This document shows positions 15,043 to 24,477 of a stretch of DNA of 31,391 nucleotides, one piece after another. This DNA comes from a virus. The stretch's first letter is position 1, and each line of letters opens with the position of its first letter. The position numbers and the translations under genes are program-made. The stretch covers positions 1-31,391 of IMG/VR virus record IMGVR_UViG_3300006810_000223. The stretch is one strand, 5' to 3'. The notes below the pieces were generated by a model that saw only the letters and a program-made list of their open reading frames with translations, was not told the DNA's origin and did no database searches.

Positions 15043-17721
15043 TTGTCGAGCCAGTTCACAAACATTCAATCACCTGAAGCATTTGACTTGATTCAGCCAA
15101 GCACTTCGGTTGGTGCAGATTCAGGATTAACTCAGAAGCAGCTTAGAGAGAAGCTGGTAGCTGAGGCTGTGGCAAAGTTGGCAGCAGAGCAAGAAGAGCC
15201 AAGTAAAGTTGAGCAGATAAGGAGAAGTGATCCGCGTCTCATTGGGTTAAAGGATACGGTGTCGCCTTTTGAACGGTTTGCTTTTGGTTTAACAGAGAGT
15301 TTTAATGAAGGAGATCTCCTTGAGACTGCTCCAGAACAGATTAAAGAGCGTGGTGAAGCTAAGACTGCTGAGCTGGGTTTTGAAGCGGTTGACCCAGGTC
15401 TTGCCGAGAAAGCGGCATTCTCTAGGGTTGGTGGCACGGTAGATATAGTTGAGCCAGCAGGTCGTTTCTTAGAGTTTATTGGTGAGAAGATAGCACCTGA
15501 AGATGAGACAGGATTACAGCCAATCTTTGGAGATAAGACAGATGAATTGGCCAATCCAACTAAGAAGATTGATGATGAAGTTATTGGCTCTTTGGTTGAG
15601 GGAACGAACAGAACTCCAACCTTGCAAGATGTAAAGAAGAATTTCTCTCTTGAGGGTGGTAGAGAGGCATTAGGTTCAGTTTTTAAAGTTGTTGGTGGTG
15701 GTATTGCTGATATTGCCAATCAAGTTGGTACTGCAACTGAAGCAGCTACTGATATGAAGAATGCTCAGGACTTCTTTGAGAAGGGGCAGATGTGGGAGAG
15801 TATTGTTGCAGCTCCTCTTTATATTGGTGGTGTCGCTCAAGGTTTAAATCTTACAGGTCTTAATGCTCTTGAAAAAGCTATTTCAAATCAAGCTATCAAG
15901 ATGATGGGTGCAGGTAAACTCGGCATTCAAGGCAAGGGTGCCATAGAAGCATTAATGAGGATGGGTAAGCGCGCAGGTTACACGGAAGAAGCCATGATGG
16001 GTGTTCTTAGCAAAGGGATTGGTTCAACAGGTATGGGGCTTATTGCGGGTTCAGGGAACATGCTTGCTGGTTTACCTTTGAGTATTGAGGCTAGTTTAGA
16101 TGAGAATGGAAATGTTGATCCTGGTAAATTAGCATTAAACTTGGGTGTTGATTTCGGCTTCGCTTATAGCCTAACTCAATTGCCTTTCTTTGCGGGTAGT
16201 GCACTAGGTCTCAGTAAGAGTTTTCTCAAAGGTGTTAAAGACATGGGCAAAGCTGTCAAGAGATATGCAGCAGGTGCTTTAGAGACAGTTCAAACAGGTA
16301 AGAAGAACCTTAAAGCTAAGACAATGGAGGCAGCGACTGCTGGTATCCAGAAGCAAGATGCGATCATTGAGAAGGAAACAATCCAAAGGATCCAGGAGAG
16401 CAAAGCAAAGGGAGAACCTAAAGAGGTTCAAAAGAGTTTAGTTGAGCAAAGTAGAGCTAAGTTATTGGATGGTTTTAGCGAGGAGGGGGAAGTAGCCCTA
16501 AGAAGATTAGATGAAGAGCAACCGAAAATCACTGAGGAAGAGATTAGAATTCTGGAAGAAGATCCGGAGATGGCACAGCTATCTAGACAAGTTGATGAGC
16601 TAGATGCAGAGGTATCTGCTAAGGAAGGACAACTTCTTAAAGAGAGAAGTCGTTTAAAAGCTGATGTGGATGATGTTAAATCATCTGGTACTGGAGAGAG
16701 TACTTCTAAATTAGAGAAGCAGATTGATAGACTTGATAAGCAGATAGCAAAGTTAGACAATGTTAGAGCAGAGGGTAGAAACCAGTTGTTCAAAGGCTTA
16801 GCTCGCAAGAAGACAGATTCATTCTTAGAGGGTGGTCAGTTTAAGAAGGGTGAGTTTATTAATACAAAGCAGGGGATAGGTAAGATTAAATCTATTTCCA
16901 AAGGTGGTATTAAGATTGAGACTCCATCAGGTACTAGAACTGTTAGTAAGGGTGATGTTGTTCTAGATGATATCCGTGGTGTTGATGTGGATATTAAACA
17001 GGAAGTGTCTCAGGCTATTGAAGAGGCACTAGATGTAGCGCCTGGTATCACCAAGAGGTTAAGTAAAGCTGATTCGACTATCTCAGAAGCAATTACTTCA
17101 CTGGAAAGAAAAGCGGTTGATCTTGGGCTTCAAGGCAAGAAGGGAACCAAGGCATTCAAAAAAGTTAATAGTGAATTAGAAGCTTTGAGAAAGGGACAAG
17201 CAGAAGCACGCGGGGATGTTGTTCCCGAGTCTAGTCGTTCATTGAATGCAAGAGCTAAGCTCCCTGAGACGAGGAAGGCTATTGGCAAGCTTGATGATAT
17301 AGCTCGTGAGAATCAAATTAATCCAGCCCAGTTAGATACTCAGAAGAAACAGATATTAATGGCCGAGCAGAAGACATTAAAGTCAATGCGTAAGGGAGAT
17401 ATAGAGATTGCTAAAGTTAAATCAGAGATGGAGGCTCAGAGACTGAATGACGAGATATACGAACTGGAGTCACGAGGCGAACCTGTTGGAACGAAGACGC
17501 AGGATCTGGTTGAAGCGGAGGCGAAAACTCAGGCTCTTGAAAAAATTCAGAATGAGAAAGCTCATAGAAAACAAGATCTGGATACGGCAAAACAAAAGGT
17601 TAGTTATGATAATGTGGAGCAAGATTTTAAAAAGTTTAGGGAAGAAGATGGTAAAAGCGAAATTCTTCAGTTGGCTGAAACGCAAAACCCAGAAAGAATC
17701 AAAGTGAAGAGGTGTTCCTGA
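15043..17721 (+). CDS. Large internal virion protein C (ejection apparatus)
   Basis: 892 aa, initiated at a TTG: GGGAGG ends 6 nt upstream and no ATG lies nearby in frame. Residues of about 210-390 contain Gly/Ala-rich hydrophobic stretches (VGGGIADIANQVG; GMGLIAGSGNMLAGLPLSIE; LPFFAGSALGL), which could insert in membranes. Residues of about 425-600 and 650-880 are long charged coiled coils, separated by a small beta segment (about 600-645, IGKIKSISKGGIKIETPSG) that looks SH3/KOW-like. No lytic transglycosylase motif is evident. Size and location match the giant internal core proteins of podoviruses. The stop overlaps the next start (TGATG), so the two giants are likely co-translated. Confidence 0.7.
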   Translation: MSSQFTNIQSPEAFDLIQPSTSVGADSGLTQKQLREKLVAEAVAKLAAEQEEPSKVEQIRRSDPRLIGLKDTVSPFERFAFGLTESFNEGDLLETAPEQIKERGEAKTAELGFEAVDPGLAEKAAFSRVGGTVDIVEPAGRFLEFIGEKIAPEDETGLQPIFGDKTDELANPTKKIDDEVIGSLVEGTNRTPTLQDVKKNFSLEGGREALGSVFKVVGGGIADIANQVGTATEAATDMKNAQDFFEKGQMWESIVAAPLYIGGVAQGLNLTGLNALEKAISNQAIKMMGAGKLGIQGKGAIEALMRMGKRAGYTEEAMMGVLSKGIGSTGMGLIAGSGNMLAGLPLSIEASLDENGNVDPGKLALNLGVDFGFAYSLTQLPFFAGSALGLSKSFLKGVKDMGKAVKRYAAGALETVQTGKKNLKAKTMEAATAGIQKQDAIIEKETIQRIQESKAKGEPKEVQKSLVEQSRAKLLDGFSEEGEVALRRLDEEQPKITEEEIRILEEDPEMAQLSRQVDELDAEVSAKEGQLLKERSRLKADVDDVKSSGTGESTSKLEKQIDRLDKQIAKLDNVRAEGRNQLFKGLARKKTDSFLEGGQFKKGEFINTKQGIGKIKSISKGGIKIETPSGTRTVSKGDVVLDDIRGVDVDIKQEVSQAIEEALDVAPGITKRLSKADSTISEAITSLERKAVDLGLQGKKGTKAFKKVNSELEALRKGQAEARGDVVPESSRSLNARAKLPETRKAIGKLDDIARENQINPAQLDTQKKQILMAEQKTLKSMRKGDIEIAKVKSEMEAQRLNDEIYELESRGEPVGTKTQDLVEAEAKTQALEKIQNEKAHRKQDLDTAKQKVSYDNVEQDFKKFREEDGKSEILQLAETQNPERIKVKRCS

Positions 17722-20318
17722 TGGTTAATGAAGATGTAATAGCAATCAACGAGAAAGTATCTAATGTGCTCAGTAAGGGCATCTTAGGCGGCCTTGCAGT
17801 TGGCGCTGTTGGATCTGTCGCTATCCCAGGTATCCGCTGCAAGATGGTGACAAAAGCAAAGCGGATTAAAGAGAATTTGCAAACTCAGAAACCATTTGGC
17901 TTTACAGATATCAAGGGGTTGGGGGATCTTAGAAGGTCGGTAACTAGATTAAACGATGAACTATTGGAAGTTGACCGTAATTTTTTGAGTGAATTAGAGC
18001 AATTACAAAAGAGTTTAAAAAAAGCAAAGGATCCAGAGAGTCAGGAGTCAATCAAAGCAGCAATTAAAGAGCTTGAGATTAATTACAAAGCAGATGACAG
18101 GGTGAATTTTAGAGACTCCATTATTGAACATGACGGAATTAAGACTATCGCCATGGAGCCATTCCAGGAGCAGGTTACAAAGCTATTGATGATGGTAGAG
18201 GAAGGTAAGGTTCCTCTTGGTAAGGGTAGTAAGGTTGGTGACTTTGATAGACAGGTAGCCGAGTTATTGGGTGAAGAATTAGAAGCTGATAAGCTAATTG
18301 GATTAAATCCAAAAGGTGGTAAGTCTTTAACTTACAGAGAGATTATTGAAGAGACAGGCAGCTCTGGTATAGCTGGTCTTGATTCACTTGTTGAGAAGTA
18401 TGGAATGGAGTCCCTGGATTTCCTAGAGGGTCTATCAAAGACATTTAGAGAAGGTGCGTTGTTAGTAGGGCTTGAACCTGAGCGCTTCTTGAAGAATTAT
18501 TTCCCAAGGTTTCAATCCAAGGTCACAGATATATTGAAGCAAATGGCTGCTGAGGGTACTGATGTAGCCGAGGTGACGAAAATATCTAAGATTACAGAAG
18601 CATTCTTCAAGAAGCAGCGTACTAGTCAGAAGCCAGGAGAAGAGGTGTCAATCTTAGAGGCGGTTCTTAGGTATCAGCATGCGGTTAGAAAGAGTTTAGA
18701 TAGGCAGCTTTATGTCAAGGCAGCTGATGTGCTATCTGGTGATCCTGAGATGAAGACCACTGTTGGTAGAGCAGCAAGACAGTTAATGGACAATATCTCA
18801 GACATGAGAGAGAGAACGATAGCTGATAATATTGTTGACTCATTTCGTAACAATTTTTATGGCGCGGTGTTGAGTAATAACCCATCTTCTACGATGAACA
18901 ACATGACTCAGTTATTGAACATCACTGGTACTGAGTTTGGTTATTCTGCTGTTGCTGATGGTATAGCAGAGGTGATGAAGGGAGAGAGCTCTCTGTTTAA
19001 ACCATTGTTAGACTCGATGGGTATTAAACCTGAAAGAGCATTGAGTGGCGCTTTGGATCTACTGGATCTTGAGGGGCGTCATTCAATAGAAGTTATAGAT
19101 AGAGCTAAGGATATGTTTGCTCAGTCAGAGGCATTCATGCAGTCAGTGACAGCGGTTGCTGCTATCAAGAAACGCTTCAAGGGAAGAGAGAAAGAGTTTA
19201 AAGAGTTGCTAGAGAGAGGTAACCTAGATGAACTAACTGATGTGATTGGTACTGCTAGAAAGGCAATCATGAAGACGATGTTCACCAATATCGATCTTAA
19301 TAGATCTTGGATTGACAATAATTCTTTAGCGAGAGCACCATTTACATTTTTGAATCATAGTTTTAGGGAGACTCGTTTTGTTACAGAGCTCTTTAGAGAT
19401 GTTGCAACTGGTAAGGGACAATCAAGAGTCAAGGCGACAGGTAAGATGCTTAGGTATTTGACTAGTAAGACAATGATCATGGGTGGTCAGATGCCATGGT
19501 TGTTTATTCCTGCAACAGTTAGAAACTACATGGAGGAGAACCATCCTCATGTGAGTCAGAGTTTAGTGGAGACTCAAATCATGCTAGATGCTGTGCCAAG
19601 TTTAAAGACTGCTATGGCAGTTGGTCACTTAGATCTAACCACTAGACAAGGGCTTTTTGATTTCTTTACGCCGATAGCTAGTGCTTTGCAAGGCAAGATT
19701 AGTTTTGATCAGGCAGCAAGACAGATTCCTATCGTGGAAGAAGGTAAGCGTCTTCTTAGAACTGGCGCTCAAGCTGTTGATGATAAGGATGACCCAAGGG
19801 ATTTAATTAAATTGGGTGGAGCATTGCTTGCATATGGTGGTTCATTTGGATTTCCACCGATCAATTTCAAGGTAGGTGGTTTAAGGGTTAAGAGTGTTGG
19901 TGGCACTTTATCCATTAATGGATACCCTATTGGTGCAACAACGGTTAAGAATATGGGTGTTGCTATGGTGGATCTAGCTGAGGAGAGAACCACGTTCTGG
20001 GGTCACGAGAAGTCATTAGAGACAACAGACGACAAGGTAGAAGCTATCGTAAGCAATTTCTTCTCTACTCCAAGAGAGGCTGGTATTATTCGTAAGATGA
20101 CAGGTGAGGCTAATGCTGGTGCTTTTGCAGGTTTGACTTTGAAGGGAGTTTATGACCAGAAGATGTACGCCCTTATTGTTGAAGAGTCTTATCAGGGGAA
20201 TAAGAAGAAGGCAGCAGATGCCATGATCAGAAAGAACTATACAATGCGCAAGAAGTTGGATATAAAGCTCAGTAAGGGGCAAGTGAAACGTATTAATAAA
20301 CGAATCAAGCAGCTTTAG
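17721..20318 (+). CDS. Large internal virion protein D (ejection apparatus)
   Basis: 865 aa from the ATG at 17721. A GTG at 17712 is also in frame, but AGAGG lies 8 nt before the ATG. Residues of about 17-36 form a hydrophobic Gly-rich segment (GILGGLAVGAVGSVAIPG) that could span a membrane. The remainder is long and helical. The central stretch KTMFTNIDLNRSWIDNN with APFTFLNHSFRETRF resembles a region conserved in large internal proteins of marine and enteric podoviruses as I recall it. The C-terminus is basic (KGQVKRINKRIKQL). It probably forms the trans-envelope channel or core together with the preceding 892-aa protein. No enzymatic motif was found. Confidence 0.7.
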   Translation: MVNEDVIAINEKVSNVLSKGILGGLAVGAVGSVAIPGIRCKMVTKAKRIKENLQTQKPFGFTDIKGLGDLRRSVTRLNDELLEVDRNFLSELEQLQKSLKKAKDPESQESIKAAIKELEINYKADDRVNFRDSIIEHDGIKTIAMEPFQEQVTKLLMMVEEGKVPLGKGSKVGDFDRQVAELLGEELEADKLIGLNPKGGKSLTYREIIEETGSSGIAGLDSLVEKYGMESLDFLEGLSKTFREGALLVGLEPERFLKNYFPRFQSKVTDILKQMAAEGTDVAEVTKISKITEAFFKKQRTSQKPGEEVSILEAVLRYQHAVRKSLDRQLYVKAADVLSGDPEMKTTVGRAARQLMDNISDMRERTIADNIVDSFRNNFYGAVLSNNPSSTMNNMTQLLNITGTEFGYSAVADGIAEVMKGESSLFKPLLDSMGIKPERALSGALDLLDLEGRHSIEVIDRAKDMFAQSEAFMQSVTAVAAIKKRFKGREKEFKELLERGNLDELTDVIGTARKAIMKTMFTNIDLNRSWIDNNSLARAPFTFLNHSFRETRFVTELFRDVATGKGQSRVKATGKMLRYLTSKTMIMGGQMPWLFIPATVRNYMEENHPHVSQSLVETQIMLDAVPSLKTAMAVGHLDLTTRQGLFDFFTPIASALQGKISFDQAARQIPIVEEGKRLLRTGAQAVDDKDDPRDLIKLGGALLAYGGSFGFPPINFKVGGLRVKSVGGTLSINGYPIGATTVKNMGVAMVDLAEERTTFWGHEKSLETTDDKVEAIVSNFFSTPREAGIIRKMTGEANAGAFAGLTLKGVYDQKMYALIVEESYQGNKKKAADAMIRKNYTMRKKLDIKLSKGQVKRINKRIKQL

Positions 20319-22554: not shown

Positions 22555-22767
22555 ATGAAAGCCGAAGCACTAGTTCTACCTTCACCAGACAATCCAGAGT
22601 TGTCTATAAAGAAGAGAGCTAAAGAGGCAAGGCAACGATTAATGACTCGAGAAGCTCTTAATAGGATTCACAGAGAAAAGAGTGTATATAAGCCAAAAAA
22701 AGGGTTAATCTCTGATCTTTTTGATTTATTGTCATTTGTCCTTAAGAGAGGTGGTGAAAAATGCTAA
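22555..22767 (+). CDS. Small basic helical protein before the endolysin, unknown
   Basis: 70 aa, Lys/Arg-rich helical middle (KKRAKEARQRLMTREALNRI) with a weakly hydrophobic segment at about residues 50-64 (GLISDLFDLLSFVLK). The ribosome site is weak (TGAG). Its 3' end overlaps the endolysin start by 7 nt and supplies that gene's AGAGG site. The amphipathic C-terminus could associate with membrane, so a lysis accessory role is possible but speculative. Confidence 0.55.
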   Translation: MKAEALVLPSPDNPELSIKKRAKEARQRLMTREALNRIHREKSVYKPKKGLISDLFDLLSFVLKRGGEKC

Positions 22768-23846
22768 TAAGCAGCAAGGGATTAGAGAAGCTTAAAGAGT
22801 TTGAAGGGTTCAAAAGAGACGCTTACAGAGATGTTGTTGGTATCTGGACAATAGGCTATGGCAACACAGTTTATACAAATGGCGAACCAGTTAAAGAGGG
22901 TGATCGAATCACAAAAAAAGAAGCTGAGAGGCTTATGGTTGCCGTTCTGGATGGTTTTGAACAGGCAATCAATGACTTAGTAACAGTTCCTTTAACTCAG
23001 CCTGCATTTGATGCACTTTGCTCTTTTGTTTACAACGTGGGAGTTAATGCATTTAAGAAATCGACAATGTTGAGAAAACTTAATGCTGGTGATTACAGTG
23101 GGGCACATGCTGAGTTTGGCAGATGGATCTATGGATCTAATGGTCAGCCAATACAAGGCTTGATTAATAGGAGAGAGCAGGAGGCGGAGATGTTCAAACC
23201 AAAGAAAGCACTCTTATTGGTACAAGGTATTAATGAGGGTAAATATATTAAAGATGAGGTCTTGCAGAGCAACTTTGATACAAGTTCTTTTGACAAAATC
23301 AAGGTCATTGATACAGAAGGTATCTATGATCGAAGCAAAAAGAACCCTTTGTTATTCTGGAGGCGAAATAAAATTTGGGATAAGTACGGAGATGTAATTC
23401 AATTTTACGTGACTCCATTTAGTAATAAGAGGAAAGCTATTTGTCGCAGGATTAGAGATCGGGTAAAAGCATTACAGGGAGAAGGATACGAGGTTTCAGT
23501 CTTAGCTCATAGTCTAGGGACAACAATGGTCATGAGTAGTAAGGTTAGAATCCATGACTTCTATTGTTTCGGTTCTCCTGTTGGTTTCTTCATTGGCTTC
23601 TTAAGAGGATTCATTCTCAATCATTTGAAGAGGTTCATAAAGCATTTCTCAGTTGTGAACTTCATGTTCTGTAGCTCTCCTAATGACAAGGTTTGTTCCA
23701 AGTTGACGAAAGGATTCTTCAAGCTAGTTAATAAAGCTAATGTTGGAATATTTAGCAACTATAACTTACAGTCAAATCATGACCTAACAGATTACTTGAA
23801 CGAGTTTACTCAAGCCCGAGCTCAAGGTCAGATAGATACTCATTAA
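22761..23846 (+). CDS. Two-domain endolysin: GH24 muramidase fused to alpha/beta-hydrolase
   Basis: 361 aa. Residues 1-146 are a phage-type lysozyme that cleaves peptidoglycan glycan chains. The catalytic triad E15, D24, T30 has exactly the 9- and 6-residue spacing of T4 lysozyme (E11/D20/T26), and the domain ends with the conserved GLINRREQEAEMF. Residues 148-361 do not look like a wall-binding domain but like an alpha/beta-hydrolase. They show an oxyanion-type strand-loop LLLVQGINEG (151-160), a nucleophile elbow AHSLG with S251, FGSPVG (270-275), a candidate acid D309 in SSPNDKV, and a candidate H340 in SNHDL, in the family order Ser-Asp-His. No signal peptide is seen, so a holin or other export route is needed. 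The substrate of the second domain is unknown: lipid or wall-ester cleavage is inferred. The last 41 nt overlap an opposing gene. Confidence 0.85.
   Translation: MLISSKGLEKLKEFEGFKRDAYRDVVGIWTIGYGNTVYTNGEPVKEGDRITKKEAERLMVAVLDGFEQAINDLVTVPLTQPAFDALCSFVYNVGVNAFKKSTMLRKLNAGDYSGAHAEFGRWIYGSNGQPIQGLINRREQEAEMFKPKKALLLVQGINEGKYIKDEVLQSNFDTSSFDKIKVIDTEGIYDRSKKNPLLFWRRNKIWDKYGDVIQFYVTPFSNKRKAICRRIRDRVKALQGEGYEVSVLAHSLGTTMVMSSKVRIHDFYCFGSPVGFFIGFLRGFILNHLKRFIKHFSVVNFMFCSSPNDKVCSKLTKGFFKLVNKANVGIFSNYNLQSNHDLTDYLNEFTQARAQGQIDTH
23179..23192 (+). promoter_or_regulatory. Internal ribosome site and ATG at the endolysin domain boundary
   Basis: A consensus AGGAGG at 23179-23184 lies 5 nt before an in-frame ATG at 23190 (residue M144). 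Translation from here would give a free 218-aa alpha/beta-hydrolase. Secondary starts of this kind are known in several phage endolysins. Caution: the purine-rich codons encode the conserved RREQEAE of GH24, so the match may be a by-product. Confidence 0.45.
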
Positions 23847-24477
23847 GTTGCTTCTTAGTACCTTTTCGTAGGGCATCTGCTTGTCTATGGTTCTTTATGA
23901 TGGTCATATGGCTTGGCGTTTTTGTTAATATCAGCTCTAATTGTGTATGCCCTTTAAAGGTTTGAATAGCTATCCTGTCGCCTTGTTTGAGTCTTTCATA
24001 CGGCCGACAACTATAGTCATATGTGTTAGGTAGGATGGTCTCAAACTCAGCTGGTGGGTTACTATGCCTCTTGTGCTTTACAGAACCAGCTCTATTAATG
24101 CCCATTCTGATGGGGGTTTTCCCCAGATTATGAAGCCGCCAATCATACTCAAGTAGATGTAATTCTGGATCATCCATTTCATTTTCAATGAAGTCTCGAA
24201 TGGTCACAATATTATTCCAGAATTTAGACTTAGCGATTTTGAATTGACCATAATAGATAGGAGCCAAAAAGGTAAAAACTTCACCTCTAACCCTAAATTC
24301 TCTCATCGCTTGAGTATGATATCTGTCTCTTGCTTTACGCCTAGTGAGTTTACTAGTGTAATCCACTACATATTCTGACGTATCAATATTCACATTAATA
24401 GGAGGCGTGTATGTACGACTTGCATGCCGAAGCTGCAGTCGATGCCGACTCTTTTCGTGATCGTATTCTCTAAACAT
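23806..24477 (-). CDS. Unknown protein, last gene of the early operon
   Basis: 223 aa, basic and rich in His, Arg and Tyr; not recognised. The N-terminal 60 residues are strongly basic (KLTRRKARDRYHTQAMREFR). The middle has WNNIVTIRDFIENEMDD and the C-terminal third has a compact segment GDRIAIQTFKGHTQLELILT. The charge suggests nucleic-acid contact, but no nuclease or binding motif is clear. It starts 11 nt after the previous stop with a TAAGG site. Its 3' end runs 41 nt into the end of the endolysin gene on the other strand, marking the convergence of early and late transcription. Confidence 0.65.
   Translation of the reverse strand: MFREYDHEKSRHRLQLRHASRTYTPPINVNIDTSEYVVDYTSKLTRRKARDRYHTQAMREFRVRGEVFTFLAPIYYGQFKIAKSKFWNNIVTIRDFIENEMDDPELHLLEYDWRLHNLGKTPIRMGINRAGSVKHKRHSNPPAEFETILPNTYDYSCRPYERLKQGDRIAIQTFKGHTQLELILTKTPSHMTIIKNHRQADALRKGTKKQLNEYLSDLELGLE

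Follow-up and report, generated by a model that had tools for sequence, protein, structure and literature searches.

A phage endolysin gene predicted to join a GH24 lysozyme to an alpha/beta-hydrolase, with a strong internal ribosome-binding site at the domain joint

Lysin gene and its genomic setting

The DNA analysed here (the window) spans the whole of one virus contig (31,391 bases), which has a GC content of 41% and represents a tailed-phage genome or a fragment of one. The late genes lie on the + strand between positions 198 and 23846, and the early and replication genes form a block on the - strand from 23806. The final gene of the late run encodes a lysin of 361 residues, in which a GH24 muramidase is followed by a predicted alpha/beta-hydrolase domain, and its start is preceded by GAGGTGG, which pairs with the anti-Shine-Dalgarno sequence at -9.6 kcal/mol. 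At the switch between late and early genes, the 3' end of the lysin gene overlaps a convergent gene (23806-24477) by 41 bases (23806-23846). The features discussed in the text are the following:

198-443 and 436-633, + strand: two small ORFs with one transmembrane segment each, candidate holin or membrane lysis proteins (hydropathy only)
22761-23846, + strand: fused lysin gene, GH24 muramidase and alpha/beta-hydrolase, 361 residues (ORF open for 361 codons)
22761-23195, + strand: GH24 lysozyme domain, residues 1-145 (Pfam PF00959, PHROG 7, solved lysozymes)
22803-22805, 22830-22832 and 22848-22850, + strand: GH24 catalytic set E15, D24 and T30 (aligned with solved lysozymes)
23179-23184, + strand: internal Shine-Dalgarno sequence AGGAGG, 5 nt before the ATG of codon 144
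23190-23846, + strand: proposed second product, a free hydrolase of 218 residues from the internal ATG
23202-23843, + strand: predicted alpha/beta-hydrolase domain, residues 148-361 (AF2 model, Foldseek and VIA-align, hhalign)
23223-23234, + strand: QGIN, residues 155-158, at the oxyanion-hole position after the first strand
23511-23513, + strand: S251, predicted nucleophile, in AHSLGT
23685-23687, + strand: D309, predicted acid, in SPNDKV
23778-23780, + strand: H340, predicted base, in SNHDLTDY

The two small ORFs with one transmembrane segment stand at the beginning of the late run, and family searches gave no informative match for them. No ORF with an o-spanin-like lipobox was seen beside the lysis genes of this contig, which is possibly incomplete. 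Useful relatives of the phage itself were not found, and the terminase matches are weak and mostly to cyanophages and Vibrio phages. Immediately upstream of the terminase genes lies a gene for a collagen-like protein of 284 residues with Gly-X-Y repeats (760-1614). Further along the late run, two large ORFs of 892 and 868 residues (15043-20318) share 10 bases. The downstream ORF begins with GTG behind a weak ribosome site (-1.8 kcal/mol), and the pair could represent a single large virion protein that a frameshift or an error has divided, or two internal virion proteins.

GH24 lysozyme domain

Judged by profile and structure-based matches, residues 1-145 are beyond doubt a GH24 lysozyme. The Pfam Phage_lysozyme model (PF00959) matches residues 12-141 over its whole profile (1-125 of 125) with an E-value of 1.4e-46 and 158.3 bits against a cut-off of 22.3, PHROG 7 endolysins match at 6.3e-62, and solved lysozymes align to residues 3-145 with values down to 4e-37. 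The first-pass annotation described this half as a T4-type muramidase with an intact E15-D24-T30 triad; the triad is indeed intact in the alignment with solved lysozymes, but the domain is closer to lysozymes of the Gifsy and Acinetobacter-phage type than to that of T4. The closest phage lysozymes share about 50% identity, the full domain and the E-D-T set with the window protein. They cover residues 1-146 only, with matches that end at about residue 145, whereas the window protein continues into a second predicted enzyme. By inspection, the N-terminus has neither a signal nor an SAR-type membrane segment, so a holin is expected.

Relatives of the C-terminal domain

The C-terminal part, which has 214-216 residues, matches no family of Pfam, PHROGs or NCBIfam at the curated cut-offs. 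The model of DDHD, a domain related to phospholipases (PF02862), reaches 13.4-14.8 bits (E 0.03), below its cut-off of 28.3, and DUF676 reaches 12.5-13.9 bits (E 0.04), below its cut-off of 20.3, and PGAP1 and Lipase_3 are absent from its Pfam matches. Compared by tblastn with 50,697 records of phages and 72,556 of plasmids, this half gave 0 matches; its own peptides found no direct homologue among viral contigs, and a genome scan in which the window sequence served as confirmer confirmed no match. The protein P0003, which is encoded on the contig L012 and is the nearest viral relative of the window hydrolase, was found by a DNA pattern for HSLGT...FGSP across viral contigs; a search with a two-row alignment returned L012 again and nothing further. 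It shares 23-25% identity with the C-terminal half, with a BLAST E-value of 7e-5 among 834 ORFs, which is flattering because the search pattern selected for the motif, and of 1e-7 pairwise. P0003 passes the Pfam DDHD model (1.1e-6, 29.4 bits) and has many bacterial relatives. The nearest relatives of the hydrolase half thus appear to be bacterial lipase-like proteins in the neighbourhood of DDHD, PGAP1 and DUF676, and a profile search of these relatives against solved structures gave weak matches to lipases and to Nir2/PITPNM.

A profile of 29 relatives, which were picked by the nucleophile motif and did not include the window protein, aligns with it by hhalign at 95.2% and 2.6e-8, in a register that places S251, D309 and H340 on the invariant Ser, Asp and His of the profile. 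An HMM of 80-81 relatives gives the window protein 12.0-12.9 bits, and the best of 1,000 shuffles reaches 2.9 or 6.0; most of this signal comes from the nucleophile-elbow and GSP blocks, and it is gone once these are masked. Membership of the C-terminal half in the alpha/beta-hydrolase superfamily is thus well supported, but its assignment to an exact family is not.

Predicted fold

An AF2 model of the hydrolase half, made with an alignment of 51 rows, has a pLDDT of 71.5 and a pTM of 0.72, with most core blocks at 80-93 and a poorly modelled mid-domain (model residues 49-71). Its elements follow the order strand, strand, helix, strand, nucleophile elbow, helix, strand, late strand, acid, histidine and last helix; S251 is located at the strand-helix turn, D309 follows the late strand and H340 precedes the last helix. 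Foldseek returns esterases, thioesterases and lipases at a probability of 1.0, with 23 chains at E<=1e-3, and VIA-align places 816 of 1,000 chains at Z>=8, the best at Z 13.2 with an rmsd of 3.3 over 171 aligned residues. The matched folds are carboxylesterases, feruloyl and formylglutathione esterases, thioesterases and lipases, and the viral ones include alpha/beta-hydrolases of uncultured tailed phages. A single-sequence AF2 model reached a pLDDT of 50 and failed, so the fold assignment rests on the alignment and is not independent of it. Matches of that low-confidence model to tyrosine phosphatases in the PDB (E>0.003) were disregarded. With the alignment, the model has the alpha/beta-hydrolase core that the first-pass annotation had proposed, and its suggestion of a muramidase and an alpha/beta-hydrolase in one chain agrees with the open frame of 361 codons, the Pfam GH24 match and this predicted fold.

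The lists of fold matches are also compatible with LysB. A LysB of mycobacteriophage type fused to a muramidase, in a phage whose host has a mycolate layer, would combine the same two kinds of activity as LysA and LysB within the same fold superfamily. Such an origin is very unlikely, since Pfam, PHROGs and NCBIfam give no LysB or cutinase family match, the GH24 half resembles lysozymes of proteobacterial phages, and the GC content of 41% is unlike that of most phages of mycolata.

Predicted active site of the hydrolase domain

The predicted active site is built by Ser251, Asp309 and His340, and the loop QGIN (residues 155-158) occupies the oxyanion-hole position. In an alignment of 10 sequences, whose relatives were collected by tblastn of P0003 with no selection for motifs, the invariant elements include H-S-L-G, S-P, D and H...Y. 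In the alignment of 51 rows, G156, S251, D309 and H340 are invariant; these rows were required to have HG, HSLG and H...Y, and D309 is an independent invariant column because the Asp was not used to pick them. The ordered Ser-Asp-His set and the oxyanion-type loop, both pointed out in the first-pass annotation, are therefore conserved among the relatives, the former in register by hhalign and the latter with its invariant Gly. The lipase-like hydrolases near DDHD, PGAP1 and DUF676, such as P0003 and WP_243803519, have the HG, HSLGT, GSP, D and H...Y blocks in the same order as the window protein, which differs from them by its identity of about 20-25%, a shorter mid-domain, QG in place of HG (a Gln where the relatives have His) and its fusion to a lysozyme.

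Such divergence could also mean that the hydrolase fold is kept as a binding or stabilising module in which catalysis is not significant. The low identity of the domain to all known enzymes (about 20-25%), the QG of the oxyanion loop instead of the usual HG and the poorly modelled residues 49-71 would fit this explanation, but the whole predicted triad and the nucleophile elbow have been retained in a sequence that diverged nearly everywhere else, which makes this explanation improbable. A catalytic second domain is the preferred reading.

Domain joint and internal translation start

The two domains are joined with no linker, since the lysozyme extends to residue 145 and the first strand of the hydrolase begins at residue 148. 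At positions 23179-23192 the sequence is AGGAGGcggagATG, in which AGGAGG is followed by cggag and by an ATG that is in frame. Among the 342 internal in-frame ATG, GTG and TTG starts of the genes in the contig, this site has the strongest pairing with the anti-Shine-Dalgarno sequence (-10.3 kcal/mol, stronger than the -9.6 kcal/mol of the gene's own start), and is the sole one with an exact AGGAGG at a spacing of 3-8. The chance that the top-ranked site falls on the unusual domain joint, calculated post hoc, is about 1 in 342, and AGGAGG can come by chance from the purine-rich codons of RREQEAEM. Judged by its sequence, the lysin gene may have two products, a bifunctional lysin and a free hydrolase.

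In L012, whose terminase (D3112-type relatives) marks it as a Mu-like phage contig, P0003 is a separate gene about 10 bp downstream of a gene for 191 residues. The product of the latter has the pattern ES...GPFQFDP...YNGR...SPYV and a weak Pfam SLT_2 match at 0.067, and looks like a putative lysozyme or transglycosylase. The locus (L012:2973-4615, - strand) is composed of a transmembrane gene, the lysozyme/transglycosylase-like gene and the DDHD-like hydrolase gene, which are followed by TerS and TerL. At the junction, ctgaacatcTAGGAGGcaaagcATG, the stop codon of the upstream gene is overlapped by the AGGAGG of the hydrolase gene. The window arrangement looks like this tandem with the stop lost, as suggested by one relative; the AGGAGG and ATG kept at the joint, together with the tandem genes of L012, make the window gene look like a fusion of adjacent lysis genes. 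Neither the internal start nor the L012 tandem was part of the first-pass annotation, and both alter the probable working of the gene, which possibly has two products.

The same stop, which in L012 stands exactly at the joint, would also fit a sequencing error that removed a stop codon between two genes, and the occurrence of the fusion on a single contig would fit this or a chimeric assembly. Both are very unlikely, because the reading frame is open throughout the joint and the base composition of the two halves resembles that of the neighbouring genes and fits the phage, so that in this one contig a chimeric assembly is not indicated. A natural fusion gene is the reading followed below.

Comparison with known lysis systems

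No homologous fusion of GH24 and alpha/beta-hydrolase domains was found in the sequence collections searched, which include 50,697 phage records, and comparative support for a maintained fusion is therefore absent. The lack of a homologous full-length relative in these phage records bears out the initial impression that a single-chain muramidase and alpha/beta-hydrolase is unfamiliar. The literature and collections searched also gave no natural chain with these two domains and no endolysin gene with two products of which the shorter is a second enzyme. The parts appear to be known and the arrangement new, as judged from one contig.

The closest architecture is that of ELP-E10, an engineered chimera of an endolysin and a C-terminal GDSL lipase, which retains both activities and requires both active sites (PMC12173070). 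Its lipase, whose active site is required for killing, comes from a phage lysis cassette, and natural separate lysis-cassette lipases have already been published for Gram-negative phages (PMC12173070). ELP-E10 and the window protein both have an N-terminal peptidoglycan hydrolase and a C-terminal lipase or predicted lipase-like domain in one chain. ELP-E10 is man-made, combines a GDSL lipase with a transglycosylase endolysin and has both a binding domain and a linker (PMC12173070), whereas the window protein is natural, consists of GH24 and alpha/beta-hydrolase domains and has no linker. The window fusion would be a natural counterpart of this engineered antibacterial (PMC12173070).

The LysA and LysB proteins of mycobacteriophages also bring a peptidoglycan hydrolase and an alpha/beta-hydrolase esterase to lysis (PMC5707550). 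They are encoded by separate genes and LysB acts on mycolyl-arabinogalactan (PMC5707550); the window hydrolase has no sequence-family match to them.

Endolysins made as two polypeptides from one gene by an internal translation start are known (PMC9430671), such as CTP1L (PMC4777826) and LysIME-EF1 (PMC7098653). Like them, the window gene has an internal ribosome site that is in frame and falls on a domain joint, and its two products would share one stop codon. These endolysins belong to Gram-positive phages and typically have a C-terminal wall-binding part, whereas the short product of the window gene would be a predicted second enzyme. The survey of internal starts in endolysins covered Gram-positive phages only; Gram-negative phages were omitted because their endolysins mostly consist of one domain (PMC9430671). 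Two-product endolysin genes would be extended to a new kind of second product.

Proposed lysis mechanism

The reading towards which we lean, with modest confidence, is a late-gene endolysin with two catalytic domains that was fused from adjacent lysis genes and retained the second start. A holin would open the inner membrane, after which the GH24 domain would cut the glycan strands, and the predicted serine hydrolase (S251-D309-H340) would cut an ester of the envelope and help to open the outer barrier. We infer that the substrate is most likely an acyl ester of a membrane phospholipid or of another outer-layer lipid. The gene would have arisen from a lysozyme gene and a downstream hydrolase gene joined by loss of the intervening stop, and the retained ribosome site and ATG of the second gene would give a free hydrolase of 218 residues beside the full-length protein. 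The hydrolase would act at lysis as the fusion, as the free second product or as both.

The breadth of the fold class, which includes esterases, thioesterases and lipases, would also allow a hydrolase that is merely carried by the lysin and is active after or beside lysis, on released extracellular polymer, on esters of the capsule, on storage polyester or on a different ester; phage lipases thought to be active on extracellular polymer are cited in PMC12173070. This alternative is rather unlikely, since the hydrolase is fused to an endolysin and its relative in L012 occupies a position like that in a lysis cassette, both of which place it at the envelope during lysis.

With a role at lysis, the lysozyme-hydrolase fusion could breach two layers of the host envelope with a single gene. 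Spanins were not seen in about 13% of surveyed phage genomes, not all of them from phages of Gram-negative hosts, and the way in which spanin-less phages get through the outer membrane is acknowledged as an open problem (PMC6139136). A natural fusion of lysozyme and hydrolase is a concrete and testable candidate for an enzymatic route through the outer membrane. A more specific version, in which one gene gives a muramidase-lipase and a free phospholipase-like hydrolase, the latter opening the outer membrane enzymatically and replacing the spanin, is doubtful; if true, lysis would have an enzymatic route that needs no spanin, and the gene would be a two-product endolysin gene with a second enzyme, and not a wall-binding part, as its short product.

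Gene contexts of other hydrolase relatives

Most of the DDHD/PGAP1/DUF676-like relatives are found in gene contexts other than that of the window. A second phage relative (L109:4776-5489, on a 147-kb contig) adjoins a gene for deoxynucleotide monophosphate kinase and not lysis genes. Three viral matches (L110-L112) were rejected as lysis genes, since by inspection they look like bacterial-type genes, and a match labelled 'Acinetobacter phage' (H31) was rejected as a phage gene, since its neighbours are tRNA and metabolic genes and the DNA looks like that of a host. For most bacterial relatives there is no connection with lysis, and several adjoin genes for caspase-like, NACHT or CHAT proteins. 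In four plasmid loci (L020, L022, L024 and L025) the hydrolase relatives lie directly 3' of caspase-family genes, and others are near CHAT or NACHT genes; this neighbourhood suggests a recurrent protease-lipase pair, which is possibly defensive.
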